Origin: Hydrogenophaga sp.
GTDB taxonomy: Bacteria > Pseudomonadota > Gammaproteobacteria > Burkholderiales > Burkholderiaceae_C
Length of the DNA: 64,000 bases
Direction: 5' to 3'
Assembly (NCBI GenBank): GCA_018333605.1
Contig: JAGXSV010000074.1
Span: 1-64,000 of the forward strand
Part shown: positions 35,986-59,570 of the stretch, piece after piece
How the letters are laid out: the number at the start of each line of letters is the position of its first letter
Position numbering within the stretch: position 1 is the first letter of the stretch
Made by a program: the position numbers and the translations under genes
The notes under the pieces: model-generated
Databases searched by the model: none
Told to the model about the DNA's origin: nothing
What the model saw: only the letters and a program-made list of their open reading frames with translations

Positions 35986-36025
35986 ACGTCATCCGGATTT
36001 CACGAATGCTTCATGAGCGCGTCAC
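35986..36025 (+). promoter_or_regulatory. Putative tandem PhoB boxes upstream of phoX copy 1
   Basis: Four 7-bp units related to CTGTCAT follow one another at exactly 11-bp intervals: ACGTCAT (35986), ATTTCAC (35997), GCTTCAT (36008) and GCGTCAC (36019), each with T-C-A at the conserved place. That spacing defines PhoB boxes. No good -10 hexamer is visible downstream, so the promoter start is uncertain. Confidence 0.55.
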
Positions 36026-36072
36026 ACGTGCTGGCGAGACTGCAGTTTGTTCAAACCAAGCAGGAGAGCCAC

Positions 36073-38244
36073 ATGGCGCAAAGCATTCGAGACGACGACA
36101 GCGTTTCCAACACCTCCGGTAACACCAGCCTGACCGAACTGGTCGACCGGGCCATCGCACAGAACCCCAAGCGGCGCCTGCTGCTGAAGTCTGGCCTGGG
36201 GATGGCGGCGATCCCCTTTCTCGGCGGTCTGGCCGCCTGCGGCGGTGGCGATGACGTGGTGGCACCAACGCCGGCACCAACGCCGGCACCTCCGGTGGCG
36301 CCAGTCGAACAGATGCTGGGATTCAAGGCCGTGGCCACCTCCAGCGGCAGCGAAATCGTGGTGCCCGAGGGCTACATCGCCTCCGCTTTCGCCCCCTGGG
36401 GCTCGCCGATCAACGATCTGGCTCCGGCCTGGAAAGGCGATGCCACCGGCACCGCGGCCGAACAGGAGCAGCAGGTCGGTGACAACCACGACGGCATGGC
36501 CTTCTTCGGCTTCAACGCGGCGGGCAACGGCTTCGGTGATCGCAGCGACGAAGGCCTGCTGGTGATGAACCACGAGTACATCAACCCCGAGTACTTCTAC
36601 GCTCCGGAAATCGATGCCACCGACTGGATGGCGCCCTTCACCTTCGAAAAGGCACGCAAGGCCCTGGCCGCTCACGGCATCAGCGTGCTGCACGTCAAGC
36701 GCGCAGCCGACGGCAGCTGGGAGCATGTCAAGTCGTCACCCTACAACCGCCGCATCCATGGCAACACGCCGATCACGATCCAGGGCCCGGCCGCCGGCCA
36801 CCCCCTGATGAAGACGGCTGCCGACCCGAGCGGCACCGTGGCGCTGGGCACGCTGAACAACTGCGGCAACGGCCGCACGCCCTGGGGCACCTACCTGACC
36901 TGCGAGGAAAACTTCAACGGCTACTTCGGCTGGAACGGGACCCGCACCGCCACCGCGCTGGAAAACCGCTACGGCATTTCTGCCAACGGCTTTGGCTACC
37001 GCTGGCACACCGTGGATTCGCGTTTTGACGTGAACGCCACGCCCAACGAACCGAACCGCCACGGCTACATCGTCGAAGTCGATCCCTTTGCACCGGGCAG
37101 CCAGGCCACCAAGCGCACCGCACTGGGCCGCTTCAAGCACGAAAACGCCGCGCTGGAAGTCACGCCCAGTGGCAAGGTCGCCGTCTACATGGGCTGCGAC
37201 GAGCGCAATGAATACGTCTACAAGTTCGTCGCCGACGGCACCTTCGATGCGGCCAACCCCACCAGTGCTGCCAACCGCAGCCTGCTGGGCAAGGGTACGC
37301 TGTACGTGGCCCGCTTTGGCGCCGGCACCACGGTGGGTGACAACATGGGCACGGGCACCTGGATTCCACTGAAGCCGGACACCGTGGGTGTTAACAGCGT
37401 CGCACTGCGCGACAACCCGAACTTCGCAGCCGCCACCGACGCCGAAGTGCTGGCCAACATCATGATCAAGACCCGCCAGGCCGCCGATGCCGTGGGCGCG
37501 ACCATGATGGACCGCCCGGAATGGGTCGCGGTCAATCCGAAGAAGGCTGGCGAGGTGTTCATCACGCTGACCAACAACAACCGCCGCGGTACCACCACCG
37601 CCTCGGTCAACAACCCCGACGGCAGCACCGTGGCCGGCTCGGCCCGCCCGCCGGTGGACGAAGCCAACCCCCGCGCCAACAACGTCTGGGGTCACATCGT
37701 GCGCTGGAACGAAGCCGGTGGCGATGGCGGCACCGCCACCACCTTCGACTGGGACATCTTCGTCCTAGCCGGTCAACCCGCGGTCACCGGCGCGCGCGCG
37801 CCGTCTTCAAACATCAACGCCGAAACCCTCTTCAACAGCCCCGACGGTCTGGATTTTGACGCCTTCGGTCGCATGTGGATCCAGACCGACGGCAGCTTCG
37901 CCAACACCGGTGACTTCGCTGGCAACGGCAACAACCAGATGCTGGTGGCCGACCCGAAGACCAAGGAAATCCGTCGCTTCCTCGTCGGCCCGGACGGCTG
38001 CGAAGTCACCGGCATCACCTGGTCGCCGGACCGCAAGACGATGTTTGTGAACATCCAGCACCCCGGCGAGGTGGGCAGCCACCCGAAGGCGCCGGCCGCG
38101 TACCTCGCCCTGCCGAGTGCCGAGCGTGACAACTGGATCGCGAAAAACCCGACCGCGTTCTCACAGTGGCCCACCAGCGGTGTCCGTCCTCGTTCGGCCA
38201 CTGTGGTGGTGCGTCGCACCGACGGCGGTGTGATCGGGGGTTGA
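36073..38244 (+). CDS. phoX: PhoX-type alkaline phosphatase, copy 1
   Basis: 723 residues from ATG 36073, preceded by CAGGAGAGCC. R34-R35 in N-P-K-R-R-L-L-L-K-S-G-L-G-M begin a twin-arginine signal, and L-A-A-C-G-G with C56 offers a lipobox, so the protein is probably Tat-exported and perhaps lipid-anchored. The PhoX signature G-T-L-N-N-C-G-N-G-R-T-P-W-G-T-Y-L-T-C-E-E-N is complete with both cysteines. PhoX enzymes (Ca/Fe-dependent) release phosphate from organic monoesters. Tandem PhoB-box-like repeats lie upstream, a terminator follows. A PhoX-like esterase without phosphatase activity cannot be excluded. Confidence 0.88.
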   Translation: MAQSIRDDDSVSNTSGNTSLTELVDRAIAQNPKRRLLLKSGLGMAAIPFLGGLAACGGGDDVVAPTPAPTPAPPVAPVEQMLGFKAVATSSGSEIVVPEGYIASAFAPWGSPINDLAPAWKGDATGTAAEQEQQVGDNHDGMAFFGFNAAGNGFGDRSDEGLLVMNHEYINPEYFYAPEIDATDWMAPFTFEKARKALAAHGISVLHVKRAADGSWEHVKSSPYNRRIHGNTPITIQGPAAGHPLMKTAADPSGTVALGTLNNCGNGRTPWGTYLTCEENFNGYFGWNGTRTATALENRYGISANGFGYRWHTVDSRFDVNATPNEPNRHGYIVEVDPFAPGSQATKRTALGRFKHENAALEVTPSGKVAVYMGCDERNEYVYKFVADGTFDAANPTSAANRSLLGKGTLYVARFGAGTTVGDNMGTGTWIPLKPDTVGVNSVALRDNPNFAAATDAEVLANIMIKTRQAADAVGATMMDRPEWVAVNPKKAGEVFITLTNNNRRGTTTASVNNPDGSTVAGSARPPVDEANPRANNVWGHIVRWNEAGGDGGTATTFDWDIFVLAGQPAVTGARAPSSNINAETLFNSPDGLDFDAFGRMWIQTDGSFANTGDFAGNGNNQMLVADPKTKEIRRFLVGPDGCEVTGITWSPDRKTMFVNIQHPGEVGSHPKAPAAYLALPSAERDNWIAKNPTAFSQWPTSGVRPRSATVVVRRTDGGVIGG

Positions 38245-38279
38245 CCCCCTGTGCGGTCTCCGGATCGCACCAGACAAGC

Positions 38280-38314
38280 AAAAAGGCAGAGCGCCCAGGC
38301 GCCCTGCCTTTTTT
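38280..38314 (+). terminator. Terminator after phoX copy 1
   Basis: GGCAG-A-GCGCC, loop CA, GGCGC-C-CTGCC with A5 before and T6 after; 35 bp after the phoX stop. Confidence 0.8.
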
Positions 38315-38414
38315 CATGGGGAGACGCCGGACCGGCACACCAAATTCACAAACGCCATCGACCCTGCGCTGTTTCACCCCGCTATCTGAACTTTCTCCAT
38401 CCACGACCACCCAC

Positions 38415-39180
38415 GAACACGGCTGCCACCCCCACCGACTTCAACATCGAAGACGCCAAGCCAACCGCCAACCCCAGCATCGCGCCGGTGCTGGACGCGC
38501 GCCTGAGCCGCCGTAGCCTGCTGCGCGGGATATGGGCGCGGCCGGTGTGGGCACGCTGGCCGCCACCAGCCTGGCCGATGCGGTGATCGTGCCCGAGGGT
38601 TACAGCGCCCAGATCGTCTACGCGCTGGGTGATCCGCTGACCGCCAGCACCCCCGCCTTCAAGAACGACGGCACCGACGCCGACTTCACCAACCGCGCCG
38701 GTGACCACGCGACGGCATGGCGTGGTTTGGCCTGGACGCGCAAGGCCAGCCTTCGCACAGTGCCGCACTGCGTGACCTGATCGCGATGAACCACGAGGCC
38801 ACCACCGACGAGAAGCTGGTGTCGTTCTTCATCCACGCCAACCGCGCTGCGTCCACCCTGCCCCGCACCGCCGCCGAAGTGGACAAGGAACTCACGATCC
38901 GCCGCCTGTCCGTGGTCGAGTTGCAGAGCGATGGCGAACAGTGGGCCAACAAGACGGGCTCGGCCTTCAACCGCCGCGTCACCACCATGACCGAAGCCGC
39001 CATCCACGGGCCGGCCCGCGGCACGCTGAACAATTGCGGCTCCGGCAAGGCGCCCTGGGGCCCCTGCGTCTCCGGCGAAGAAAACGGGTTCGCCTCCTTC
39101 CACCGCGAGGCCACGGTCGACGACGCGCGCAGGAAGGACAAGCAGATGCAGGCGCTCAACCGGCATGGCCACAAAGGCCG
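38415..39180 (+). pseudogene. Truncated, frameshifted PhoX copy
   Basis: Three frames must be joined. First, I-A-P-V-L-D-A-R-L-S-R-R-S-L-L-R-G (Tat motif region) to about 38525; second, M-G-A-A-G-V-G-T-L-A-A-T-S-L-A-D-A-V-I-V-P-E-G-Y to about 38710; third, D-G-M-A-W-F-G-L-D through G-T-L-N-N-C-G-S-G-K-A-P-W-G. Each joint needs about one base. Similarity to PhoX stops near 39180, about one third of the way through, where T-C-E-E-N has become S-G-E-E-N. No start codon is evident. Lying between two intact phoX genes, it is a decayed paralogue. Confidence 0.8.
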
Positions 39181-39646
39181 GCGTCGCCAGCAAGGGGGGC
39201 CCTCTCACAGGAGAAACGCACGCTCATGGAACGGGGAGCGGCACGTTGGCTGGGGAAAGTTCGTGGGTCCAGGTCGTCAGTTGATGGTGCGCGGCGCCAG
39301 CAAAGTCGGCCTGCTCTTCACCCGGCAGCTTGGCGGTCCTGCGGTCGCCGGCGTCACCGCACGCGGGCGAGCAGGACCACCGTGGCCTGTCCGTACCGGC
39401 TTCGCCACGTGCCAAGGAACTGACACCGCACCAACCAGGGCGCGCACCCTCGCCAAACGGATGGCCTGGCGCAAGCTTGCAACAAGAAAGGTTCTTTGTA
39501 CCACCCGCTCCCTCCAGGTTGCAGCCCCAAAGCCCTTGGACGGCGCAGCCAAGCCTAGCCGGGGATGCGACCCAGACGGCATTTTGCGCCTCCCGCATCG
39601 CCTTTTTTATGGGCAACGCATCGCGACAAAACAGTGTGGACAGGCC
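39181..39646. other. Stretch with no supported gene
   Basis: 466 bp between the PhoX remnant and the convergent 5'-nucleotidase gene. The + frame of the remnant stays open here but no longer resembles PhoX. No inverted repeats or transposase fragment were recognised. It may be where the rest of the pseudogene was replaced. Confidence 0.4.
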
Positions 39647-41650
39647 CTAATTCAGCACGGCGTCTGACCGGCGGGCCAGATTCTGGATGCGCAAGTCCTC
39701 GGCTTCCGGCGTGTCGGCCACGCTGAAAGGCGTGGCGGTGAACTGGCTGCGCAGGTACTTCATCAGCGCGTCCTGCTCGCTGCCCAGGGTTGCGGTGGTG
39801 GTGCTGGCTGCGCCACCCGCGGTGGCCGCCGTCATGACAACGTCGAGCTCGGCCAGGTTGACCATGCTGGCTTTCAGCGGGAACGGGTAGCCGTCGCCAC
39901 GGCCAGCCAGGAAGTTCAGTGTCACCAGGCGGAAGCTGCGGTTGGCATCACCCACGATGGCGCCGTTCTGCACCACCGTCTCATCCCCCACCTTCAGGGA
40001 TCGAATGCGTTCACCGTGCGTGGTCACCGCAAAACCGGTGAGCACCTGTGCCGTGCGGCTGGCGTCGTAGCTGAAGGCCATGCCGGCCACCTGCGGAAAC
40101 CGGCCCTGCGACCCGAGTGAAGCCACGCCGTGCTCGAGCAGCTGCTTGAGCTGGGTGGCGGTCACGTCCAGCGCCCACAGCTTGTTGTTGAACTTGAGCG
40201 CGGTCTCGATGGCCAGTTGCGAGACTTGGCCCGCCTTGCGCCCCGCGTCCGCGTTGGCCTTGGGCGGCGTGAGGGTGGCACCGGACACAGAACCCGGTGC
40301 GGCCACCACTTCCCCAATCTCAGACCGAATACCGCCGCCGTTTTTCAGGGCAATCCGCACGGTGCTGTCGAACTGGCGGGCGTACCAGAGGTCGGCGTCG
40401 GCGGTCAGGTTTCCGAAGTTGGTTTCCTGGTTGCGCACCGCCAGGCGGCGCCCCTCAAGGAACACCGCGGTTTCACCAAAGCTGACACCGTCCTTCAGGC
40501 GCAACACGCTCTTGACCGCCTCACGCAACTCCACCACTTTGGCGATGGCCGTGGATGTGCTGGACTCGCTGGTGGCCCAGGCACCCGAGCGCACCGTTTC
40601 AAACTGCGCAGGCATGAGCACGCCCTGTGCATTGAAAGGGGCCATGAAACGGCCGAGGTATTTGTAGTCGCCGTCCACGTTGACCACCACCACCGGTTGC
40701 CCGGATGCGCTGGTCGTCTGGTACGGGTACACGCCGGCGGCCACATCGCCGGTGCGCAGGGCGTCGTTGCTGTCGGCCAGCAGGGTGTTGGAGCCACCGG
40801 CCACGATGATGTCCACGTTGCGCAGCCGGCTGGCCAGCGCCTTCTCGGTGTCCAGCGTCTGCATGTGGGCCAGCAGCACGATCTTGTTGATGCCGGCGGC
40901 GGTCATTTCGTCCACGCCTGGCTGGATCGCGCTGGCCAGGCCATCCACATCCACTGCGCTGCCGCCCATGCGGGGCAGGAATTCCAGCCCATCGGTGGTG
41001 GTGATGTTCTTGAACACCGGCGAACCGGCGCCAATGAGGCCGATGCGCTCGCCGTTGACGGTGATGTGGCTCCACCCGCTGAGCTTGCCGGCCTGCGTGG
41101 CCGCGTCGCCGCCGTTGGGCACGGCCAGGTTGCGGGTGTTGCTGTCGGCGCTGAGATCGACGTTGTAGCTCAGGTGCGGGAACTGCGCGCCCACCCAGCT
41201 GGTGGTTGTCGTGCCGCTGGGCCGCACGATTTCGGTGAACTGTCGTGTGCCCAGATCCAGCTCGTGATTGCCGATGGTGGACGCCTGCACGCCAAGGGCA
41301 TTGAGCAATGCGATGTCGGCGCGGCCGACTTCCGGCGTACCAAGCTGTGTGATCAGCGAACTGTCGTTGGCGGCGTTGAAGCGCGGGCCAGGAATGTAGT
41401 TGTCACCCGAACTCACCACCAGGGTGCTGGTGGGGAACTGGCTGCGAAACTGGCTGACCAGGCCCGACAGGCTGGCCACCGAATTCAACGCCGTGGTATC
41501 GGACCCATCGGCATCCGAGAAGTGCAGCAGCTGAAGCGTGAACGCGGGCTGCTCGGCCGGTGGGGGCGCGTCAGAGCCGCCGCAAGCGGTAACCAGGCCC
41601 GCGACCAGCAACCCCAGAACCCATGCTGTGGGACGAAATGCAGATGACAT
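39647..41650 (-). CDS. Lipoprotein 5'-nucleotidase/metallophosphatase
   Basis: 667 residues from ATG 41650. The signal ends L-V-T-A-C-G-G with lipobox Cys C23. The calcineurin-like domain shows L-H-F-S-D-A-D, S-S-G-D-N and G-N-H-E-L-D metal motifs (the first normally D-x-N/H), then the 5'-nucleotidase C-terminal domain with N-x-G-G-I-R (K-N-G-G-G-I-R-S). Such enzymes release phosphate from nucleotides or cyclic nucleotides in the periplasm. Upstream it shares a divergent promoter region with phoX copy 2 and has its own PhoB-box-like repeat. Confidence 0.88.
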   Translation of the reverse strand: MSSAFRPTAWVLGLLVAGLVTACGGSDAPPPAEQPAFTLQLLHFSDADGSDTTALNSVASLSGLVSQFRSQFPTSTLVVSSGDNYIPGPRFNAANDSSLITQLGTPEVGRADIALLNALGVQASTIGNHELDLGTRQFTEIVRPSGTTTTSWVGAQFPHLSYNVDLSADSNTRNLAVPNGGDAATQAGKLSGWSHITVNGERIGLIGAGSPVFKNITTTDGLEFLPRMGGSAVDVDGLASAIQPGVDEMTAAGINKIVLLAHMQTLDTEKALASRLRNVDIIVAGGSNTLLADSNDALRTGDVAAGVYPYQTTSASGQPVVVVNVDGDYKYLGRFMAPFNAQGVLMPAQFETVRSGAWATSESSTSTAIAKVVELREAVKSVLRLKDGVSFGETAVFLEGRRLAVRNQETNFGNLTADADLWYARQFDSTVRIALKNGGGIRSEIGEVVAAPGSVSGATLTPPKANADAGRKAGQVSQLAIETALKFNNKLWALDVTATQLKQLLEHGVASLGSQGRFPQVAGMAFSYDASRTAQVLTGFAVTTHGERIRSLKVGDETVVQNGAIVGDANRSFRLVTLNFLAGRGDGYPFPLKASMVNLAELDVVMTAATAGGAASTTTATLGSEQDALMKYLRSQFTATPFSVADTPEAEDLRIQNLARRSDAVLN

Positions 41651-41678
41651 CGCGACTCCGTGTGATTCGATGGAACAC

Positions 41679-41712
41679 ATGTTGCGCACCACACATGACA
41701 GGTTCGTGTCGC
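41679..41712 (-). promoter_or_regulatory. Putative PhoB box and -10 of the 5'-nucleotidase gene
   Basis: On the minus strand GCGACAC, four bases, CTGTCAT (41712 to 41695): a perfect second unit and a 4/7 first unit at 11-bp spacing. Ten bases further, CAACAT (41684-41679) could be the -10, at the distance seen in characterised PhoB promoters. Confidence 0.5.
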
Positions 41713-41749
41713 TGCTGCCGTGCTCTCGCCACAAGCCTTGACCCACTGA

Positions 41750-41783
41750 CTTTCACGCAAATGTCACGGAACGCGCCTAACCT
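41750..41783 (+). promoter_or_regulatory. Putative PhoB box and -10 of phoX copy 2
   Basis: CTTTCACGCAAATGTCAC (41750-41767) is two 6/7 matches to CTGTCAC separated by four bases. TAACCT (41778-41783) follows after exactly 10 bp, as in E. coli phoA. The best PhoB-box candidate in the window. Confidence 0.7.
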
Positions 41784-41823
41784 GCACGCCAGTTACCACC
41801 GATTTGAAACAGGAACCCACACG

Positions 41824-43869
41824 ATGTCGAATATTTCCAACAACCTGATCATTGACAACGGCGACGGCGACGAGCCGATGTCCAACCCCAGCAACAACCG
41901 TCACTTCAACGATGTGCTCAACGCCAGCCTGAGCCGGCGCTCGGCGCTCAAGGGCGGCCTGGGCGCCTCCATCACCGCCCTGTTCGGCGGCGTCGGTCTG
42001 GTCGGCTGTGCCACCACCGCCGGTGGCGCGGGCGGCCAGCTGATCGGTTTCGAAGCCGTGCCCATCGGCAGCGCCGACACCGTGGTGGTGCCCAAGGGCT
42101 ACAAGGTGCAGAACTTCATTCCCTGGGGCACACCCATCACCGGCAACATGCCGGCGTTTGACCCACTGAAGAACACCGGCGCCGACCAGGCCAACCAGTT
42201 GGGCAGCCACCACGACGGCATGCACTTCTTCCCGATCGAGGGCAAGGACCCGTACAGCGGCAGTTCCACCGAAGGCTTGCTGGTGCTCAACCACGAATAC
42301 GTGGAGCCGCGCTACATGCACGCCAGCGCCGTGGGCCAGAAACTGAGCCGCGATGCGGTGCCTGCGCTGGTCAACGGCAAGCGCCCGGCCGATGAGTGCC
42401 GCAAGGAAATCAACGGTCACGGTGTGTCGGTGGTGCACATCAAGAAGGGTGGCAATGGCCAGTGGGAGGTGGTGAACAGCAAGTTCAACCGCCGCATCAC
42501 CGGCGCCACGCCGATGGTCATCAACGGCCCGGTGCGCGGCACCGACTTCGTCAAGACCAAACACAGCCCGGACGGCACCCGCACCCGCGGCACACTCAAC
42601 AACTGTGCCCACGGCGTGACGCCCTGGAACACCTACATGATGGCCGAGGAAAACTGGGCCGGCTACTTCATCAACAAGGTGAGCGCTAGTGGCCGCACCC
42701 GCGAGCAGTCGCGCTATGGCGTCAACAGCAACGACAGCAAGCCTGCCACCTCGCGCTACGGCTGGGAACTGGCCGACAGCGGTGCCGACGAGTTCGCCCG
42801 CTTCGACGTCAGCGCCACAGGTGCCGATGCGACGCAGGACTACCGCAACGAAGCCAACGGCTTTGGCTGGATGGTGGAAGTCGACCCGTTCAACCCGGAC
42901 AGCACACCGGTCAAGCGCACCGCGCTGGGCCGCTTCGCCCACGAGGGCGTGGTGTTCCAGCCGGGCGTGGAGGGCAAGCCGGTGGTGTGTTATTCGGGTG
43001 ACGACGCCACCAACGAATACATCTACAAATTCGTCTCCAAGGGCGTGTACCGCAAGGCCGCTGGCCTGGCCAACGGCGCGCTGCTCGACGAAGGCACGCT
43101 GTACGTGGCCAAGTTCAACGACGACGGCTCGGGCGTGTGGCTGCCACTGGTGTTTGGCCAGGGCCCGCTGACCCCGTTCCGTTTCAACAGCCAAGCCGAC
43201 GTTCTGGTCAACACCCGCCTGGCGGCCGATACCCTGGGCGCCACCCGGATGGACCGCCCGGAGTGGGGTGCCATCGACCCGAAAAACGGGCAGGTGTATT
43301 TCACCCTGACCAACAACAGCGACCGCACCACCACGGACAAAGCCAACCCGCGCGAGAAGAGCCGCTGGGGCCACATCATTCGCTGGACCGAAGCCGGCAA
43401 CGACCCCGCCGCGACCCGCTTCAACTGGAACATCTTCCTGCTGGCCGGCCCGGAGAAAGACTCGCAGTTCGCCGGCAAGCCGCTGAACAAGGACCAGATC
43501 TTCAACAGCCCCGACGGCCTGTGGTTCGACAACGACGGCCGTCTGTGGATCCAGTCCGACATCAGCGAAAGCTCGATGAACCAGGGCGACTATGCGCAGT
43601 TCGGCAACAACCAGATGCTGTGCGCCGACCCGCGCACCAACGAGCTCAAGCGCTTCCTGGTGGGGCCGGTCGGGCAGGAGATCACCGGTGTGATCACCAC
43701 GCCCGACGGCAAGACCATGTTCGTCAACGTGCAGCACCCGGGAGCCACCACCACGGCCGACGACTTTGCCGCCGGCAAGCTCACCGGCACCTGGCCGAAC
43801 ATGGGCCGCTACGGCCGCTCGGCCACCATCGTCATCACCAAAGAAGACGGCGGTGTGATCGGCACCTGA
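41824..43869 (+). CDS. phoX: PhoX-type alkaline phosphatase, copy 2
   Basis: 681 residues from ATG 41824, preceded by CAGGAACCC. R38-R39 in L-S-R-R-S-A-L-K-G-G begin a Tat signal, and L-V-G-C with C62 is a lipobox. The family signature reads G-T-L-N-N-C-A-H-G-V-T-P-W-N-T-Y-M-M-A-E-E-N-W: the second cysteine present in copy 1 (T-C-E-E-N) is alanine here, which may reflect another subfamily or altered metal chemistry. The rest of the six-bladed propeller is collinear with copy 1. PhoB-box-like promoter upstream, terminator downstream. Confidence 0.88.
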   Translation: MSNISNNLIIDNGDGDEPMSNPSNNRHFNDVLNASLSRRSALKGGLGASITALFGGVGLVGCATTAGGAGGQLIGFEAVPIGSADTVVVPKGYKVQNFIPWGTPITGNMPAFDPLKNTGADQANQLGSHHDGMHFFPIEGKDPYSGSSTEGLLVLNHEYVEPRYMHASAVGQKLSRDAVPALVNGKRPADECRKEINGHGVSVVHIKKGGNGQWEVVNSKFNRRITGATPMVINGPVRGTDFVKTKHSPDGTRTRGTLNNCAHGVTPWNTYMMAEENWAGYFINKVSASGRTREQSRYGVNSNDSKPATSRYGWELADSGADEFARFDVSATGADATQDYRNEANGFGWMVEVDPFNPDSTPVKRTALGRFAHEGVVFQPGVEGKPVVCYSGDDATNEYIYKFVSKGVYRKAAGLANGALLDEGTLYVAKFNDDGSGVWLPLVFGQGPLTPFRFNSQADVLVNTRLAADTLGATRMDRPEWGAIDPKNGQVYFTLTNNSDRTTTDKANPREKSRWGHIIRWTEAGNDPAATRFNWNIFLLAGPEKDSQFAGKPLNKDQIFNSPDGLWFDNDGRLWIQSDISESSMNQGDYAQFGNNQMLCADPRTNELKRFLVGPVGQEITGVITTPDGKTMFVNVQHPGATTTADDFAAGKLTGTWPNMGRYGRSATIVITKEDGGVIGT

Positions 43870-43898
43870 TACCCCTTTTCTCAGTTGCATGAGATTTC

Positions 43899-43924
43899 AG
43901 AGCGGCTTCGGCCGCTCTTTTTTT
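43899..43924 (+). terminator. Terminator after phoX copy 2
   Basis: AGAGCGGC, loop TTCG, GCCGCTCT and a T run. A stable UUCG tetraloop hairpin 30 bp after the stop; the TPR gene starts 12 bp beyond it. Confidence 0.88.
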
Positions 43925-43936
43925 GCCCTCCAAACG

Positions 43937-44440
43937 ATGAACCGACCCATGACCCCTGCTCACTGGCTGGCCCCGCGTGTGCGCCTGGCGTTCGGCGCCC
44001 TCCTGTTGCTGCACTGCCTGAGCGTGCTTTCAGAACCCCGACCTGAGCCCTATGGGGCTGGTGCCGATCAATTTTCAGAGACCCGGCAGGCTTTGCGAAG
44101 CCAGCAGTGGTTGCAGGCGCTTGACGCCCTGCGGCAGTTGACGCGCGAGATGCCGGAGATCACGGACGACGCGGAATTTCACAATTTGATGGGTTACGCC
44201 TTGCGGCAGGCCAGTCCGTCGAACCTGGGCGTTGCGGTCGATCATTACCAGCAGGCGCTCAGGCTGGATCCTGCACATGTGCAGGCCCGCGAGTACCTTG
44301 GCCAGGCGTATCTCATGCAGGGTCGCCAAGACCTCGCCCGCGAGCAGCTTCAGGCGATCGAGCGCCTTTGCAAAGGACAAGACTGCCAAGCCTGGCGCGA
44401 TCTGCACCAGGCCATCCAGGCCTCAGCGGGCGCGCGCTGA
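43937..44440 (+). CDS. Exported TPR-repeat protein
   Basis: 167 residues from ATG 43937 (ATG 43949 is also possible). A hydrophobic N-terminal segment (L-A-F-G-A-L-L-L-L-H-C-L-S-V-L-S) is a signal peptide or anchor. About three TPR-like helical pairs follow, the clearest being A-V-D-H-Y-Q-Q-A-L-R-L-D-P-A-H-V-Q-A-R-E-Y-L-G-Q-A-Y. TPR proteins scaffold partners; its place 12 bp after the phoX2 terminator suggests weak read-through expression with phoX2. Confidence 0.72.
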   Translation: MNRPMTPAHWLAPRVRLAFGALLLLHCLSVLSEPRPEPYGAGADQFSETRQALRSQQWLQALDALRQLTREMPEITDDAEFHNLMGYALRQASPSNLGVAVDHYQQALRLDPAHVQAREYLGQAYLMQGRQDLAREQLQAIERLCKGQDCQAWRDLHQAIQASAGAR

Positions 44441-45013
44441 GGATCAGGCCGTGCGCTCAGCAAGGCGCTGAGCGCATCAAACGCATGGCACGTCCGCCGG
44501 GTCAGGCGGTCAAAGCTGCAACCTCCACCCGATCATCAGGGCGGTGCAGTCGATGCCCACAAAGGCCGGGCCGCGTTGCTGATGGGCTCAAACGGTCGGC
44601 GCTGAGACCGCTCCGGTGCATTTGTGACCATCAGCAATGCCACGCTGGGAGCGGCTGGACAGGCGCTTGTTCGCCGGCATGGTCACAGGGCACCGGGCCC
44701 ACCAGCGTGCCGGTTTTCCCAGCACGGAGCCACCGGGATGGGTGCGGTATTCGGCTTCATGCTGCTGCACCTGCTGCACCTGCGGCCCTGCCCTGGCGGG
44801 CATGGCGGTCGTCATGCGACCCACAGCTTGCATCGCAGACACCCTGGACACACACCTCCCCCGATAAAAAGGGGACGCCTGCGCACAGAGCACAACCCAG
44901 CAGTCCCTTCGCAGGTGCGGCCCGGGGATCCGGCGGTGAAGCCCTGAGGTCGAAGTGGATCTCCACCCCAACCGCCCGACCAGGGCGACTCCATGTGCCA
45001 TGGATTTCGGGCA
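44441..45013. other. Stretch with no supported gene
   Basis: 573 bp between the TPR gene and the convergent GDPD gene. Frames on both strands show no conserved motifs, suitable start sites or repeats. It may contain eroded coding sequence that I cannot identify. Confidence 0.4.
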
Positions 45014-46276
45014 TCAGCGCAATCCGGCGCAGTTCGCGTAGAAGGTCGTGGTGGCCGGCCAGTCGGAGAACACGCCCATCACGCCCACCTCCCGCGCCAG
45101 CACATCGAGCACGCGCAGCATGTCGCCCTCGCTCTTGATGGCCGAATCGAAGGACTGGTAGTAAAAGCCGTTGTTGCCATCGGCCAGGATGCCCGAGCGC
45201 TCCAGCGTCCAGGTGATGATGCCCAGACCGGCGTTCCTGGCGTCGCGAGCGTAGGTCGAAGGCACGAGCTTGCCAGCCGTATCGGTGTTCAGCAGCGCGA
45301 AGATCGGCGGTGCGACGATCTGGATACCCGCGCTCTTGTAGGCCACCAGATCGTTGTAGCTGGGCAAGTCGGCCACAGTGTTGGCGTCGTCCAGGAAGAC
45401 AGCCTGCTGGCCGAAAGCGGCCTCGTTGCGGACCCAGTACAGCACGTCGTCGATGTTGAACGACTGTGCCCACACGTTGCGCGCAGGCACGCCCGCACGT
45501 TTGTATTCGTCGATCATTTTCTGTGCGTAGGCCTCCTGCGTGAACCCGTCAAAGGGCATCGTCACGCTGGCGCTCTTGAGTTCGGGCGTCATTTTCACCC
45601 CGAGTCGCTTGAACAGCTCGATGCTCTCGGCATGCGTCAGGAGCGTGCCGCTGCTGGGACCGGCGTACAGGTCCGTGCGCCAGCTGGCGGTGCCGCCCAG
45701 GTATTCCTGCGGCGTGCGGGCGGCCGCATTGAAAGCGTCCATCTTCCCTCGCAGGGTTTTGAACTCGGCGAGCGTGATGTCGCTGGCCCGACACTCGGCC
45801 GTGGCAGGGGTGATCAGTTTTCCATGGGCATCCAGTGTGGCGGGAACGAATGGCTGGATGCACTTGGTGGCCAGTGGCGTCACCAGGATGTTGGTGGTGG
45901 TGTGCAGGTCGTTCTGCGCATGGCGGCAGACCAGTTCCTTGTCCTTGGTGAAGGTCACATCGCATTCGACAATGCCGGCGCCCATGCGGGCCGCGGCGGT
46001 GTAGGACTCCAGGGTGTGCTCGGGAAACTGCATGGGCGCACCGCGGTGACCAATGGAGAACTCACGTGGGCTGAACTGGCCTCGCTGGCCGCATTGCTGC
46101 AGCCGTTGTTTGAGCGGGCCTTCACTCATGTCATCGACCAGGAAAAACGGGCGTACCCCGAGCTGTACGTGGGCAGGACGTTCGGCACGCTGCCCCAGCT
46201 TGGTGTCGCGCGGGGAGGCCAGCGCGGTGCCGGCTGCCACGCTCAGGAGAGCGAGACAAAGAATCAAATGACGCAT
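45014..46276 (-). CDS. Secreted glycerophosphodiester phosphodiesterase
   Basis: 420 residues from ATG 46276 with a signal peptide [16 protein letters not shown] cleaved near A-L-A. The GDPD core begins at H77-R78-G-A with E86 in P-E-H-T-L-E, E104 and D106 in V-E-C-D-V and H119 in C-R-H-A, the catalytic and metal-binding residues. The enzyme releases glycerol 3-phosphate from deacylated phospholipids in the periplasm. Close in length to GlpQ-type enzymes of the long bacterial class. It is about 400 bp downstream of the PhoB-like promoter that precedes the 42-residue ORF and may belong to the same transcript. Confidence 0.88.
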
Positions 46277-46672
46277 AGAAGTACCTCGTGAGTGAAGGGA
46301 TTGATTGCGTGAACAAAGCACACTGCGGCTGGCAGCGCCAGATCGATGATGGGCAGGGGTTGTGGCAATGGCGTGGCAACGAGGCGCAGCAGCCATGCTT
46401 TGCGCAGCGGGTCAGGCGACCCGTCGGGCTCCCTGAAGACCCGCGGCCTGCATGCCTGACGACAAGCTCTTGCTCAAGGCTGCAGGGCGCGACAGCCCAG
46501 ACCCCACGACAGGGCCCGACCGCCAGGCTCCCGAAAGCCTCAGCGGTGCCAGACGGTGTCTTTGCGGCTGCGCCGCGCGAGGTAGCGCGCCCGTTGCAGT
46601 GCAAATAGCTCCAGAATGCCGCACACCACGGTGCAGCCGATCAAACCGGTGCGCCGGATTGTGTGCCGCGGG
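46277..46672. other. Stretch with no supported gene
   Basis: 396 bp between the GDPD gene and the 42-residue ORF, both on the minus strand. No further reading frame with a ribosome-binding site, terminator or PhoB-like repeat was found, so it could be an untranslated spacer in one transcript. Confidence 0.35.
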
Positions 46673-46801
46673 TCAATCATCCGACAGCCCCAGAACCTCG
46701 TCGTAGCAGACCCCTTCGGTCTCGGGCAGGCAGAGCCGGCACCAGCCATCGTCGAACAGGGCATCCAGCAGCTTCTGCAGGCCAAGCAGTTTCCAGAGCA
46801 T
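46673..46801 (-). CDS. Small 42-residue protein under a PhoB-like promoter
   Basis: ATG at 46801 is preceded by CAGGAGTGCCTC, giving an AGGAG ribosome-binding site at good distance. The product starts M-L-W-K-L-L-G-L-Q-K-L-L-D-A-L-F-D-D-G-W, an amphipathic helix, followed by C-R-L-C and a further Cys in V-C-Y, and ends acidic (G-L-S-D-D). Upstream lie three CTGTCAT-like units at 11-bp spacing and TAACTT exactly 10 bp later. Three cysteines and strong helix propensity argue for a real peptide, but its family is unknown and proof of translation is missing. Confidence 0.5.
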   Translation of the reverse strand: MLWKLLGLQKLLDALFDDGWCRLCLPETEGVCYDEVLGLSDD

Positions 46802-46835
46802 GAGGCACTCCTGAAGTTGATGTGAATCTCGAGAC

Positions 46836-46880
46836 AAGTTAACGCGCCTGTGTGAAGGTTTTGGGGCAGTTTCATGACAA
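46836..46880 (-). promoter_or_regulatory. Putative PhoB boxes and -10 before the 42-residue ORF
   Basis: On the minus strand TTGTCAT (46880-46874), CTGCCCC (46869-46863) and CCTTCAC (46858-46852) are at exact 11-bp spacing with 6/7, 5/7 and 5/7 matches to CTGTCAT/C. TAACTT (46841-46836) follows after 10 bp, nearly identical to TAACCT of phoX copy 2. Expected transcript start about 28 nt before the ATG. Confidence 0.6.
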
Positions 46881-47995
46881 GCCGGTCAGACTCTGTCCCC
46901 ATGCCGGACGCCATGGGTCGGCGTTATGCTTGGCGCTCTGCGATGGCCCTCACAGGCACCCATTCACCCTTCCGTCCCAACGTGCCTAAAAATAGCCTGC
47001 CCGAACTGCTGGCGCTGGAAAAAATCATCGCGCAGGGTGCCCCCCACCTTCAGGTTGACGTGGTGCGCGAGGTGTCGGTGGCTGCGGGCCACCGCTTTCC
47101 CGTTTACGCCATCAGCCTGGGCAACCCCAGCCTGGATGTTCCCGGCGTGGGCTTCTTTGGCGGCGTGCATGGCCTTGAGCGCATCGGTGCCGAGGTGGTG
47201 ATCGCCTACCTGCAGCACATCGTCATGCGGCTGCGCTGGGACACGATGCTGATCCGGCAGCTGGAGCAGGTGCGCCTCGTGTTCATGCCGATCGTCAATC
47301 CCGGCGGCATGTGGTCGGCCACGCGCGCGAACCCGCGCGGCGTGGACCTGATGCGCAACGCGCCCGTCGATGCGCGTGAGAAAGTGCCGTACCTGCTGGG
47401 CGGTCAGCGGCTGAGTGCCGGACTGCCCTGGTACCGGGGGCGCCTGGGCGACCCGCTGGAAGCGGAGAGCCAGGCGCTGTGCGAAGTGGTGAGCCGCGAG
47501 CTGCTCACGCGCACCATCAGCATCGCCATCGACTGCCATTCGGGCTTCGGCGTGAGCGACCGCCTGTGGTTCCCCTTTGCGCACACCCGCAGGCCGATGA
47601 CGCATCTGGCCGAACTGCATGCGCTGAAGGAGATCTTCGAGCAGACGCACAGCCATCACCCCTACATCATCGAACCCCAGAGTGCCCAGTACCTGGCACA
47701 CGGCGACCTGTGGGACCACCTGTACCTGCAGGCCTGCAGCGATCCCGAACGCATCTTCCTGCCGCTCACGCTGGAAATGGGTTCCTGGCTGTGGATCAAG
47801 AAAAACCCACGGCAACTGTTCTCCCGCAGGGGCATCTTCAACCCGCTGATCAGCCACCGCCTGCAGCGGGTGCTGCGGCGTCACCTTGCGCTGCTGGACT
47901 TTCTGGTGCGCGCCGCCAGCAGCCATGCCCGCTGGATGCCAACCCCTGACCAGCGCGAAGCACGCCATGCCAACGCGCTGGTCGACTGGTATTGA
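46874..47995 (+). CDS. M14-family zinc carboxypeptidase-like protein
   Basis: 373 residues if the ATG at 46874 is used. Zinc ligands H99 and E102 (G-G-V-H-G-L-E-R), H222 (D-C-H-S-G-F-G) and the catalytic Glu in L-T-L-E-M-G-S are present in M14 order. There is no clear signal peptide. The first ATG overlaps the divergent PhoB-like repeats, so a later start such as 46901 or 46943 may be right. The alpha/beta hydrolase gene follows after 9 bp. Substrate unknown; M14 proteins of this type cleave peptides or amide-linked small molecules. Confidence 0.75.
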   Translation: MTSRSDSVPMPDAMGRRYAWRSAMALTGTHSPFRPNVPKNSLPELLALEKIIAQGAPHLQVDVVREVSVAAGHRFPVYAISLGNPSLDVPGVGFFGGVHGLERIGAEVVIAYLQHIVMRLRWDTMLIRQLEQVRLVFMPIVNPGGMWSATRANPRGVDLMRNAPVDAREKVPYLLGGQRLSAGLPWYRGRLGDPLEAESQALCEVVSRELLTRTISIAIDCHSGFGVSDRLWFPFAHTRRPMTHLAELHALKEIFEQTHSHHPYIIEPQSAQYLAHGDLWDHLYLQACSDPERIFLPLTLEMGSWLWIKKNPRQLFSRRGIFNPLISHRLQRVLRRHLALLDFLVRAASSHARWMPTPDQREARHANALVDWY

Positions 47996-48004
47996 GAGCG
48001 TGCC

Positions 48005-48790
48005 ATGAGCACCTGGATCTTCTTGCGCGGACTGACACGGGAACGTACCCACTGGGGATCGTTTCCCGACACGTTTCGACAGGTCATCCCGAACGCACAG
48101 ATCCTCTCCCTGGATCTGCCCGGCAACGGACTTCTGCATGGGCAGCGCAGCCCGATGGCGGTTCAAGACATGGTGGCGGCCTGCCGCACGGCACTGGAGT
48201 GCCGTGGCGTAGAGCACCCGGTGCGTCTGCTCGCGATGTCGCTCGGGGCCATGGTGGCAGCCGATTGGGCTCGCACGGCCCCTTCGGAAATCGCAGGGTG
48301 CGTCCTGATCAACACCAGCATGCGCCCCTTCAGCCCCTTCTACCGGCGCCTGCTGCCGCGCAACTACCTGAGCCTGCTTCGGCTGGCGCTGCTACCGCGC
48401 TCGGCAGAAACCATCGAAAGCAGCATCCTGCGCATGACGAGCAACCACCCCGATCAACACCGCCATGTCGTGACCGACTGGGTCGCTGCACGCACGCAAA
48501 GGCCGGTGTCCCGCGCCAACGCCCTGCGGCAGTTGGTGGCTGCGGCCCGCTACCAGGCGCCCGCCACCGCGCCCACTCCGGCCATCCTGCTGCTGTCCAG
48601 CCGTTTGGACCACCTGGTCGACAACCGGTGTTCCCAGGCGATTGCAAGGGCATGGAACTGCCCTCTCGTGGCACACCCCGATGCCGGGCACGACCTGCCG
48701 CTGGACGATCCCCTGTGGGTGGCAGAAGCCGTGCGGCGGTGGTTGAACGGTCACCCCAACAAGCACAACTTCAACGGCCGCAGCCGGTGA
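48005..48790 (+). CDS. Alpha/beta hydrolase
   Basis: 261 residues. Nucleophile S79 in L-L-A-M-S-L-G-A-M, an Asp in S-S-R-L-D-H-L and the C-terminal His in D-A-G-H-D-L-P-L-D-D-P make a usual catalytic triad. No signal peptide. It starts 9 bp after the M14 gene, so the two are one transcription unit. Esterase or lipase-like; substrate unknown. Confidence 0.8.
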   Translation: MSTWIFLRGLTRERTHWGSFPDTFRQVIPNAQILSLDLPGNGLLHGQRSPMAVQDMVAACRTALECRGVEHPVRLLAMSLGAMVAADWARTAPSEIAGCVLINTSMRPFSPFYRRLLPRNYLSLLRLALLPRSAETIESSILRMTSNHPDQHRHVVTDWVAARTQRPVSRANALRQLVAAARYQAPATAPTPAILLLSSRLDHLVDNRCSQAIARAWNCPLVAHPDAGHDLPLDDPLWVAEAVRRWLNGHPNKHNFNGRSR

Positions 48791-48848
48791 TCCGCGACGT
48801 GTTGATCTGTCGCCACGGGCGGGCATGGTGAGCCCGGTGCTCCCCGTT

Positions 48849-48877
48849 ACGTCACGGTCATGCCACGAATTTGTCAT
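48849..48877 (+). promoter_or_regulatory. Putative PhoB boxes before the 97-residue gene
   Basis: ACGTCAC (48849), ATGCCAC (48860) and TTGTCAT (48871) are at exact 11-bp spacing with 5/7, 5/7 and 6/7 matches. An A9 tract follows; the -10 (TTACGG at 48888, exactly 10 bp on) is weak. Confidence 0.5.
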
Positions 48878-48978
48878 CAAAAAAAAATTACGGTCCCGGT
48901 ATGCTTCAGCCACAGTCGGCCAGACGAACCATCCGGACCGCATCCCCTTCACCAACTGTTGAGAACCAGAGGCCACCC

Positions 48979-49272
48979 ATGAGAGCCCTGAAAAAAGCCC
49001 GCAAACTGATTGAGCGCAACCCCGGCAAACCGGCGGCAAAGATCCTGTCCAGCCTGGTGGTGGCCCTCGAATCAGAACAACCCTTCAGACTCTCGGACCT
49101 GTACCAACTGGATTACGACGATTTTGGTCTGGCCGTGGAGTTGCTGACCGAATGGCGTCTGGACCGCTACTACAGCAGCAAGGCGGTTCTGCTGGACATC
49201 TCGATGCAAGCGGGCAAGTTGCAGGAAGATCAGGCCGAACCGGTTGCAGCCACCCCTGCAGCCAAACCGTGA
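48979..49272 (+). CDS. Small cytoplasmic protein under a PhoB-like promoter
   Basis: 97 residues from ATG 48979, preceded by CAGAGGCC. The N-terminus is basic and helical (M-R-A-L-K-K-A-R-K-L-I-E-R-N-P), followed by L-S-S-L-V-V-A-L-E-S, then F-R-L-S-D-L-Y-Q-L-D-Y-D-D-F-G-L-A-V and W-R-L-D-R-Y-Y. No signal peptide or membrane segment. It resembles small helical proteins of unknown function seen in related bacteria. The leader is about 80 nt. Function unknown; its promoter suggests a phosphate-starvation role. Confidence 0.7.
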   Translation: MRALKKARKLIERNPGKPAAKILSSLVVALESEQPFRLSDLYQLDYDDFGLAVELLTEWRLDRYYSSKAVLLDISMQAGKLQEDQAEPVAATPAAKP

Positions 49273-49631
49273 ACCGAACCCGAACCGACCGGACCACAAC
49301 GGGGCGGCAACACCTGGCCCCCTTCGCCTGAGGGCAGCAAGCAGGCTCACGCTAAAGCCACGAAGCGCCGAGCGCTTGGCACCACTTCAGCCCCCCCCCC
49401 GCTGACAGCCCCGACGACCGGTTCGCACCCTGAGCCGTTGCAAGCGCTGTATCGGGTACACACGGTCAGGTGAACACAACGAATCACAGGCACGGACCAA
49501 AAAAAAGTCCCGACCTCGTTTCCGTCGGTGAGCCTTGAAGATCAAATGTTGTACGGAAGCAACAGATAGGGAACATACGGCTTGTGTCACAAATGTTTTA
49601 TGGTTTCTCGATGAAATACAGGCACCTGCTT

Positions 49632-49666
49632 GCAATGGGCAATGGGCAATGGGCAATGGGCAACGG
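49632..49666. repeat. Heptanucleotide tandem repeat
   Basis: GCAATGG is repeated four times in succession, then once as GCAACGG. A seven-base unit is not a multiple of three; the tract lies outside genes and could vary in copy number. Confidence 0.85.
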
Positions 49667-57983: not shown

Positions 57984-59570
57984 TCAACCGAGCACAGCTG
58001 CCACGATATGGAAGAGGATCGCCGCGAGCACCGCCGTGGCGGGCACGGTCACGATCCATGCAGCCACGATGCGCATGACCGCCGAGCGTTTGACGATTTC
58101 CTGCCTGTAGGCTTTCTTCAGCGCCTTGCGCTCGCTCTTGCCAAACAGGGTGCTGTCGGCTTCCTCGCGGGCATTTGTCCGGCGTTTCATGTCGGCCAGC
58201 ATGTTTTTTTTCTCCAGCACTTCGGCGGTCTCGAAGCGCTGCAGGTACGCCTCGACCTCGGCCCGGTCTTGGCCCTGATGGGCTGCGTACACCACGGCCT
58301 CCATCTTGGCGTAATTCACCTTCAGCAATTCGCGCAGAAAACCCACACCAAACACAGCGCCAAGGGTCACATGCGTGGTGGACACCGGCATACCCAGCTG
58401 AGACGCTACGATCACGGTCAGCGTGGCCGCCATGGCAATCGAATACGCGCGCATGTTGTCCAGCTCGGTGATTTCCTTGCCCACGGTGCGAATCAGTTTG
58501 GCACCGTACAAGGCCAGACCGATGGCCAGACCCAGCGCCCCCAGCACCATGATCCACATGGGCGTTGCGGCTTTGGTGGCCACAGCGCCTTGCTTCACAG
58601 CTTCATAGATGGCCGCGAGCGGACCTATGGCGTTGGCCACGTCGTTGGCTCCATGGGCAAAGCTCAACAACGCGGCCGAGCACACCAGCGGCCAAGTGAA
58701 CAAGCGGTTCACACCATCTTTGCTATTGTCTTGGCGCGCTGCCATGCGGGCAACCGGCTTTCGAAGCAATGCCCAGGCCACAGCGGCCATGAGCACACCA
58801 GCCAGCAACGCGGTCACGAAGCCGACCTTGACCAACTGCCCCAGACCCTTGAGCATCATGTAAGTGCCAAAGGCCCAGACCATGACGGCGATGAGCCACG
58901 GCACCATACGGGTGGCAGCCTCGGTTTTTTCAGCGCGGTAGGTGATGCTGCGCTTGATGAGGTAGAGAAAAGCCGCCGCAATGGCGCCGCCCACCAGCGG
59001 CGAAATCACCCAGCTCGCCACGATGGCGCCAATGGTGCTCCAGTTGACCAGGCCCCAGCCGCCGGACGCGATGCCCGCGCCCATGACGGCACCAATGATG
59101 GCGTGCGTTGTAGACACGGGCGCCCCCAGTGCGGTGGCCAGGTTCAGCCAGAGTGCGCCGGCCAGCAGCGCCGAAAACATGACCCAGGCAAACCGGTTGG
59201 GGTCGGCGATTTGATCGGCGTCGATGATGCCGCCCTTGATCGTGCCGACCACCTCGCCCCCGGCCACGACGGCGCCCAAGACTTCAAAAACCGCGGCAAT
59301 CAGAATGGCCCAGCCCATGGTCATGGCGCCAGAGCCCACGGCGGGTCCCACGTTGTTGGCAACATCGTTCGCGCCGATATTCATGGCCATGTAAGCGCCC
59401 ACAACAGCGGCCACAATGAGCAGCCATACGGCCGACGACGTGAGCCCCGCTGCGGAGGCGCCGGTAAACGAGGCGTAAATCCCGACCAGAATCAAAAAAA
59501 CAACCGCAACGCCGAGTTGCAGAACGTCCTGGTTTTTGGAGACGAAACGGGGCTTTGATTTTTTTGTCAT
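57984..59570 (-). CDS. pit: PiT-family inorganic phosphate transporter
   Basis: 528 residues from ATG 59570. Two PiT signatures G-A-N-D-V-A-N at about 67 and in the second half (H-G-A-N-D-V-A-N-A-I), each followed by P-V-S-T-T-H. About ten membrane spans with a large cytoplasmic loop. Symports metal-phosphate complexes with protons. No PhoB-like box was found upstream, unlike the region at 36-49 kb; PiT transporters are usually constitutive. Confidence 0.92.
   Translation of the reverse strand: MTKKSKPRFVSKNQDVLQLGVAVVFLILVGIYASFTGASAAGLTSSAVWLLIVAAVVGAYMAMNIGANDVANNVGPAVGSGAMTMGWAILIAAVFEVLGAVVAGGEVVGTIKGGIIDADQIADPNRFAWVMFSALLAGALWLNLATALGAPVSTTHAIIGAVMGAGIASGGWGLVNWSTIGAIVASWVISPLVGGAIAAAFLYLIKRSITYRAEKTEAATRMVPWLIAVMVWAFGTYMMLKGLGQLVKVGFVTALLAGVLMAAVAWALLRKPVARMAARQDNSKDGVNRLFTWPLVCSAALLSFAHGANDVANAIGPLAAIYEAVKQGAVATKAATPMWIMVLGALGLAIGLALYGAKLIRTVGKEITELDNMRAYSIAMAATLTVIVASQLGMPVSTTHVTLGAVFGVGFLRELLKVNYAKMEAVVYAAHQGQDRAEVEAYLQRFETAEVLEKKNMLADMKRRTNAREEADSTLFGKSERKALKKAYRQEIVKRSAVMRIVAAWIVTVPATAVLAAILFHIVAAVLG

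Follow-up and report, generated by a model that had tools for sequence, protein, structure and literature searches.

Small proteins behind PhoB-type promoters in a candidate phosphate-starvation island of a Hydrogenophaga-type genome

The region described here lies at 35.9-49.3 kb of contig C74 from a Hydrogenophaga-type metagenome-assembled genome (MAG; 2.74 Mb, 83 contigs, 62% complete); the window, i.e. the whole stretch of this contig that was analysed, is 64,000 nucleotides (nt) long. On balance, the region appears to be a phosphate-starvation island in which PhoB would activate a set of phosphatases and esterases together with three small proteins of 42, 46 and 97 amino acids (aa). As a cluster of Pho type the island is ordinary; what makes it interesting is its association with two unnamed small-protein families, the 97-aa protein and the 46-aa type, the latter encoded by an open reading frame (ORF) that overlaps the 42-aa ORF. 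Sites, geometry, conservation, reading frames and linkage to phosphate genes are direct observations on the DNA, and all three small proteins may be components of the phosphate response that have gone unnoticed. A preliminary description of the window had proposed the PhoB-controlled region with two small proteins, a reading that was right yet one gene short, the overlapping 46-aa membrane-protein ORF having been missed. The Pho regulon is among the best-studied bacterial stress responses, and two small-protein families after PhoB-type promoters in many species would be named candidates for PhoR tuning, one of them short enough for ordinary gene calling to miss.

PhoB-type promoters of the phosphate-scavenging genes

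The PhoB/PhoR regulon with its Pho boxes is known from Escherichia coli and other proteobacteria. The region shares with it tandem 11-bp direct-repeat units with a TCAY core, the mark of PhoB-regulon promoters, as well as phosphatase targets and, at phoX2 as in the 22 pstS promoters used for training, a -10 element 16 nt past the last unit; it differs in that its units are degenerate and in that the promoters of the 97-aa gene have their -10 at 27-28 nt. CTGTCAT-like units at exact 11-bp spacing had been reported initially, and the phase holds for the TCA cores but the literal sequence does not: an E. coli-like CTGTCAT dyad has zero matches within the region, and a literal search with CTGTCATNNNNCTGTCAT at up to three mismatches gave one match in the window, outside the region, where 3.27 are expected by chance. 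Since the literal dyad had no match there, a PhoB matrix was trained on pstS promoters of relatives, solely from the genus and with no window sequence. Of thirty pstS loci, 22 entered the training set: seven lacked a strict dyad over the stretch searched, and a frame check removed one (L109). Selecting strict dyads in this way biases the matrix towards strong sites. All 22 carry the strict dyad and a TA...T -10 in the same position, a check that reached offset 16 at most because the training stretches end there. The matrix recovers the pstS promoter of the same genome (full score 36.8) on contig C75, where pstS is followed by genes reading as pstCAB, phoU and phoB (named from order and sequence inspection), and it also marks sites between a polyphosphate kinase 2 (PPK2) gene and a divergent acyltransferase-like gene.

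Matrix scoring against background, the test named beforehand, bore out the proposed enrichment, with eight sites of at least 8 bits in the region where background from 220 kb of this genome predicts 0.97 (Poisson 8e-6; thresholds of 8, 10, 12 and 15 bits were viewed and the p-value applies to 8). The background stretches left out this genome's pst operon and its paralogue of the 97-aa gene, both of which were fetched apart. Two sites reach at least 15 bits against none in the 220 kb, and three full promoters score at least 5 against 0.06 expected, while the window outside the region holds three sites of at least 8 bits in 50.6 kb, about the background level. The eight sites start at 35986 (+), 39409 (-), 41695 (-), 41750 (+), 46362 (-), 46863 (-), 48849 (+) and 48860 (+); the one at 39409 falls within the PhoX remnant and is probably a chance match. 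The phoX2 site (17.9 bits) and the 97-aa site (16.0 bits) top all 30 best scores of ten shuffles (maximum 15.2). Furthermore, the strict pattern TCAY-N7-TCAY-N7-TCAY has four matches in the whole genome, two in the region and two in one tandem repeat on contig C80; this TCACGCGGGCG repeat, at 49303-49339, is the sole other strict triple-TCAY match.

The preliminary gene assignments, i.e. two PhoX genes, a PhoX remnant, a 5'-nucleotidase and a glycerophosphodiester phosphodiesterase (GDPD) within 13 kb, agree with matches to PF05787, PF02872 and PF03009. PF05787 has three matches in the whole MAG, every one inside the window (at 36319, 42046 and the fragment at 38708), and is full-length and above cut-off for phoX1 and phoX2 (529 and 560 bits). 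phoX1 (36073-38244, +; 2.4e-158) was given its start by inspection at the in-frame ATG at 36073, 3' of the PhoB-type sites, the longest frame opening at GTG 35962; its promoter (35986-36025, +) has four TCAY units, their TCA cores in exact 11-bp phase (0/10 shuffles). The PhoX remnant is matched over 38708-39169 (+; 58.6 bits, profile positions 54-196 of 515) and apparently starts near 38430, again by inspection. A weak dyad (41695-41712, -; 8.7 bits) lies 5' of the 5'-nucleotidase-type gene (39647-41650, -; PF02872, the C-terminal domain, 2.4e-23), whose product has a lipoprotein-like N-terminus with a lipobox seen by inspection. The window's best promoter, a dyad with a -10 at offset 16 (41750-41784, +; box 17.9, full 18.3), precedes phoX2 (41824-43869, +; 6.7e-168).

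The pair of small ORFs on the minus strand, sORF1 (42 aa) and sORF2 (46 aa), is preceded by three phased units and a -10 of TAACTT (46836-46882, -; full 15.2, box 10.5), which by inspection stands at offset 16 from the third unit. The 97-aa gene is preceded by three phased units (TCAC, CCAC, TCAT) and a -10 of TATGCT at offset 28 (48849-48905, +; box 16.0). PhoB-type sites thus mark the five promoter regions initially counted (phoX1, 5'-nucleotidase, phoX2, 42-aa and 97-aa), and GDPD (45014-46276, -; PF03009 8.3e-22, signal-peptide-like start by inspection) adds a weak sixth, a dyad at 46362-46379 (-; 10.7 bits; full 7.5 at 46345). The claim that both small proteins have the same promoter type stands in that both promoters are PhoB-type and fails for their geometry: the promoters are not all of one type, the 42-aa one having the pstS arrangement, as phoX2 does, and the -10 of the 97-aa one being more distant by about one 11-bp unit.

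Two families of small proteins

The 97-aa gene (48979-49272, +) encodes a predicted all-helical protein (confident model, predicted local distance difference test score 86.9) whose closest named relatives are in Hydrogenophaga; H. taeniospiralis carries the gene (L033). Pfam gave it no match above cut-off and NCBIfam none at all, and neither sequence (best E 0.07) nor Foldseek (best E 2.9) comparison with the PDB gave a solved-structure match. Its conserved features are a KKARKLIE start and an EWRLDRYY segment. Homologues occur in 42/60 genomes of the genus and 57/399 of the family (in GTDB terms Burkholderiaceae, judging by named relatives); two of 274 genomes in a class sample have one (own and one congener), the class samples used here containing few genomes of the window's own family. 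Upstream of 73 homologues, which come from two collections and may repeat an assembly (L017 and L070 are alike), a site of at least 12 bits is present in 39, against 2.1% of shuffles. An alignment of 26 upstreams, window included, has the TCAY units in phase, followed in the majority of Hydrogenophaga rows by CAAA and by a TATGCT-like hexamer that is conserved. Of 49 scored upstreams, 42 have the -10 27-28 nt past the last unit, compared with offset 16 in the pstS training promoters and in 31 of 33 scored promoters divergent from the M14 gene described below. This shift may reflect an additional degenerate PhoB unit or a different polymerase contact, and it would make the 97-aa promoters well suited to exploring the distances from the -10 over which PhoB can act.

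The surroundings of the 97-aa gene point the same way. Across 54 named loci, covered for up to 6 kb per side, 46 have a phosphate gene (PhoX, Pst, PhoU, PhoB, PPK2, phytase-like or Ppx), a count that takes in Pst permease and ATPase clusters and for which one representative of each neighbour cluster was checked by Pfam. PhoX is found in 19 loci, PstS in 16, PhoU in 13, PhoB and PPK2 in 12 each, phytase-like genes in 11 and Ppx in four, and in 15 of the 16 PstS-cluster loci pstS is on the opposite strand to the 97-aa gene, a median of ~750 nt upstream. Eight loci have no gene of these kinds, one of them a 3.2 kb contig. The paralogue on contig C23 has a 21.1-bit site 120 bp upstream, the highest box score among the own-genome stretches scanned, and is ~6 kb from the PPK2 gene, which bears its own sites. 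The suggestion that the phosphate response may include the 42- and 97-aa proteins as new members thus gains support from kept sites, the paralogue and the phosphate neighbours.

sORF1 (46673-46801, -) looks coding: its ratio of non-synonymous to synonymous differences (pN/pS) is 0.32 in frame, and the other frames give 0.93 and 2.79 (nine sequences, first 20 codons). No Pfam or NCBIfam family fits it, and homologues are restricted to 6/150 family genomes and 3/60 genus genomes (own counted in both). At the eight loci scored, a dyad and -10 sit 66-79 nt 5' of the homologue's start, and 0 to 4% of shuffles attain the full promoter score. An N-terminal amphipathic helix in sORF1 was dropped, since 34% of order shuffles do as well. 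sORF1 is divergent from a gene for an M14-type carboxypeptidase-like protein (46901-47995, +; PF00246 1.9e-11) in the window; of seven other loci, a search gives the same arrangement in five, and the coordinates give it in a sixth (G050), at the end of a contig. The remaining homologue, in G138 (locus L157), is not M14-divergent and has no M14 match in its locus; there (contig C268) it still has a promoter, and its genome carries M14 on a different contig, beside a 49-aa sORF2-type frame.

Since sORF1 is divergent from M14 in most loci, M14 matches across the family were examined; the gene was matched in 76/250 family genomes, and 70 of 77 M14 upstreams, window included, were taken. Most of these have no sORF1 by motif and instead hold a small protein with one hydrophobic segment. 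In the window this is sORF2 (46540-46680, -), which starts inside the end of sORF1 and encodes 46 aa (46543-46680) with one transmembrane segment, an arginine-rich tail and the core G..E..AL.R.R. The core is present divergently from M14 in 48 of the 70 upstreams and on the other strand in one, with a mean of 0.1 in 30 shuffle rounds. Reading away from M14, full PhoB-type promoter scores reach at least 0 in 45/70 (0.6% of shuffles) and at least 6 in 30/70 (0/1400 shuffles); facing M14, 5/70 score at least 0. Two of the 48 cores (L177 and L213, in frames of 28 and 22 aa) were left out of an alignment of 46 members, which have a median length of 44.5 and a median net charge of +6, and 45 of which have a 17-residue stretch with mean hydropathy of at least 1.2.

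sORF2 is, as far as these searches indicate, more widely conserved than sORF1. A genus profile search unrestricted by M14 found it in 16/60 genomes. At the 15 loci besides the window, M14 adjoins it in every case and the promoter score is at least 0 in 11 (1.1% of shuffles); in the 3-kb locus, seven have GDPD, three PhoX and five the 97-aa gene. In the class sample, matches at E up to 0.01 are limited to five of 229 genomes, i.e. own, G419 and three weak ones. G419 holds the sole convincing match outside the family (7e-9), beside an M14 gene (63% identical) and with a promoter score of -4.4. No Pfam or NCBIfam family fits sORF2, and its profile gave no match to PDB sequences at E up to 1; matches to YmiA and DUF5337 were rejected as under cut-off. 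The YmiA-like family (PF22868) resembles sORF2 in size and in its single hydrophobic segment, but scores 23.4 bits in one of the 46 members (L164) with a curated cut-off of 27.

Proposed roles and alternative explanations

We infer that PhoB is the activator and that the small proteins are made under phosphate limitation. Phosphorylated PhoB would bind the phased 11-bp direct repeats and turn on PhoX1, PhoX2, the 5'-nucleotidase and GDPD, along with the 97-aa helical protein and the overlapping 42-aa/46-aa pair. The small proteins would be regulatory or assembly factors and not enzymes, and it is conceivable, although tentative, that they are adaptors tuning the phosphate response. With its basic start, single transmembrane helix and arginine-rich tail, the 46-aa protein would be placed in the inner membrane and may provide feedback by modulating a partner there, for example PhoR or the Pst transporter. 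A role in phosphate uptake or storage is proposed for the 97-aa protein, whose genes are often beside pst-phoU-phoB or PPK2. A bolder reading for the whole family, which we consider rather unlikely, is that it holds two unrecognised PhoB-controlled small-protein families: a single-pass type of ~40-60 aa with the core G..E..AL.R.R, M14-divergent, that would serve as a PhoR/Pst feedback tuner, and the 97-aa type as an all-helical adaptor with a separate PhoB activation mode, with the PhoB array shifted upstream by one 11-bp unit.

MgrB and PhoQ are a familiar case of a small membrane protein that acts on a sensor kinase. MgrB and sORF2 are both small membrane proteins, likened by description and not by sequence, and the regulon of MgrB is different. 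Feedback on PhoR or Pst is the first choice for the 46-aa protein because of the analogy with DUF1127 small proteins, which, according to a 2025 report (PMC12501420), are often below 50 aa, positively charged and bind PhoR. sORF2 shares with them small size, positive charge and a link to phosphate control; it differs in having a transmembrane segment and a different core, and DUF1127 is absent from the Pfam matches at E up to 1 for the 46 aligned sORF2 members and for the 97-, 42- and 46-aa proteins. Among the literature matches listed, mostly from outside subscription journals, there was nothing on these small-protein families.

Several observations weigh against a PhoB-controlled island with small tuning proteins. 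The sites of GDPD (10.7), sORF1 (10.5), the 5'-nucleotidase (8.7) and phoX1 (8.1) are not above the top shuffle scores and rest on clustering, phase and conservation; the dyad alone is also unremarkable at several sORF1-homologue loci, where 0 to 31% of shuffles reach its score. Some 97-aa upstreams have no site (e.g. L041, L022 and L055), and of the 70 M14 upstreams the core is absent in 22 and the promoter in 25. Homologous upstreams share ancestry, which shuffles leave in. The G, E, A, L and R positions of sORF2 served to select its members, and its pN/pS of 0.64 (close set) is not far from the 0.79 of the +1 frame. Contact with PhoR or Pst is drawn from analogy.

The main rival for the role of the 46-aa protein is that it is a membrane partner, anchor or inhibitor, of the divergent M14 peptidase, its phosphate link being secondary. 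M14 adjoins sORF2 in all 15 genus loci and again in G419, outside the family, with a weak PhoB-type promoter; the remaining 70 loci, having been picked by M14, are no evidence for a partnership. Divergent neighbours need not interact, however, and the conserved PhoB-type promoter points to sORF2 and seldom to M14, so a partnership of this kind seems fairly unlikely. The same polarity bears on the idea that the small ORFs are bystanders, the sites serving M14, the hydrolase or GDPD and sORF1-sORF2 being an untranslated leader or relic. The promoter does stand between sORF1 and M14, where sites could act both ways, and GDPD lies 3' of sORF2 in the window and is present in the 3-kb locus in seven of the 15 genus loci, on the same strand in six of these. 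Yet the -10 at offset 16 reads away from M14 in 31 of the 33 scored loci, M14-facing promoters are rare (5/70), sORF2 occurs without GDPD in eight of the 15 genus loci and sORF1 is under coding constraint, all of which makes bystanders quite improbable. Lastly, OmpR/PhoB-type regulators as a class share 10-11-bp direct repeats and PhoB binding here is a prediction, so the phased repeats might bind another member with a similar 11-bp site. This is very unlikely given that the matrix comes purely from pstS promoters, recovers the genome's own pstS and marks the PPK2 sites, and that the genes themselves are phosphate-scavenging.

Neighbouring genes and minor observations

The M14-type gene and an alpha/beta hydrolase gene (48005-48790, +; PF12697 2.3e-13) separate GDPD from the 97-aa gene. 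In Ramlibacter tataouinensis, a phosphatase survey describes four PhoX genes, one with a predicted PhoB site 5' of it, and five phosphatase genes that are far apart (PMC5768637), unlike the cluster with small proteins here. A small TPR protein is encoded at 43949-44437 (+) of the window, ~80 bp 3' of phoX2 and after a hairpin and T run seen by eye, and GGGCAAT-type short tandem repeats, likewise seen by eye, lie 3' of the 97-aa gene (~49636-49665).

Elsewhere, the C23 paralogue of the 97-aa gene (L120:6252-6660; C23 ~58250-58660) is followed by genes for a 162-aa Ala/Lys/Pro-rich protein and a ParA-like ATPase, and the acyltransferase-like gene divergent from the nearby PPK2 gene also has its own sites. 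A suspected fusion of the 97-aa protein in L049 was rejected as merely a frame running on into a phytase-like gene. An Ala/Lys/Pro-rich protein of ~155 aa with no Pfam family (e.g. L083:7267-7731) is encoded near the 97-aa gene in eight loci and might bind polyphosphate or DNA. Possible lipid-remodelling genes are also found near the 97-aa gene (L030-L083), namely phosphatidylserine decarboxylase in 11 loci, GT4 glycosyltransferase in nine and calcineurin-like phosphoesterase in five.

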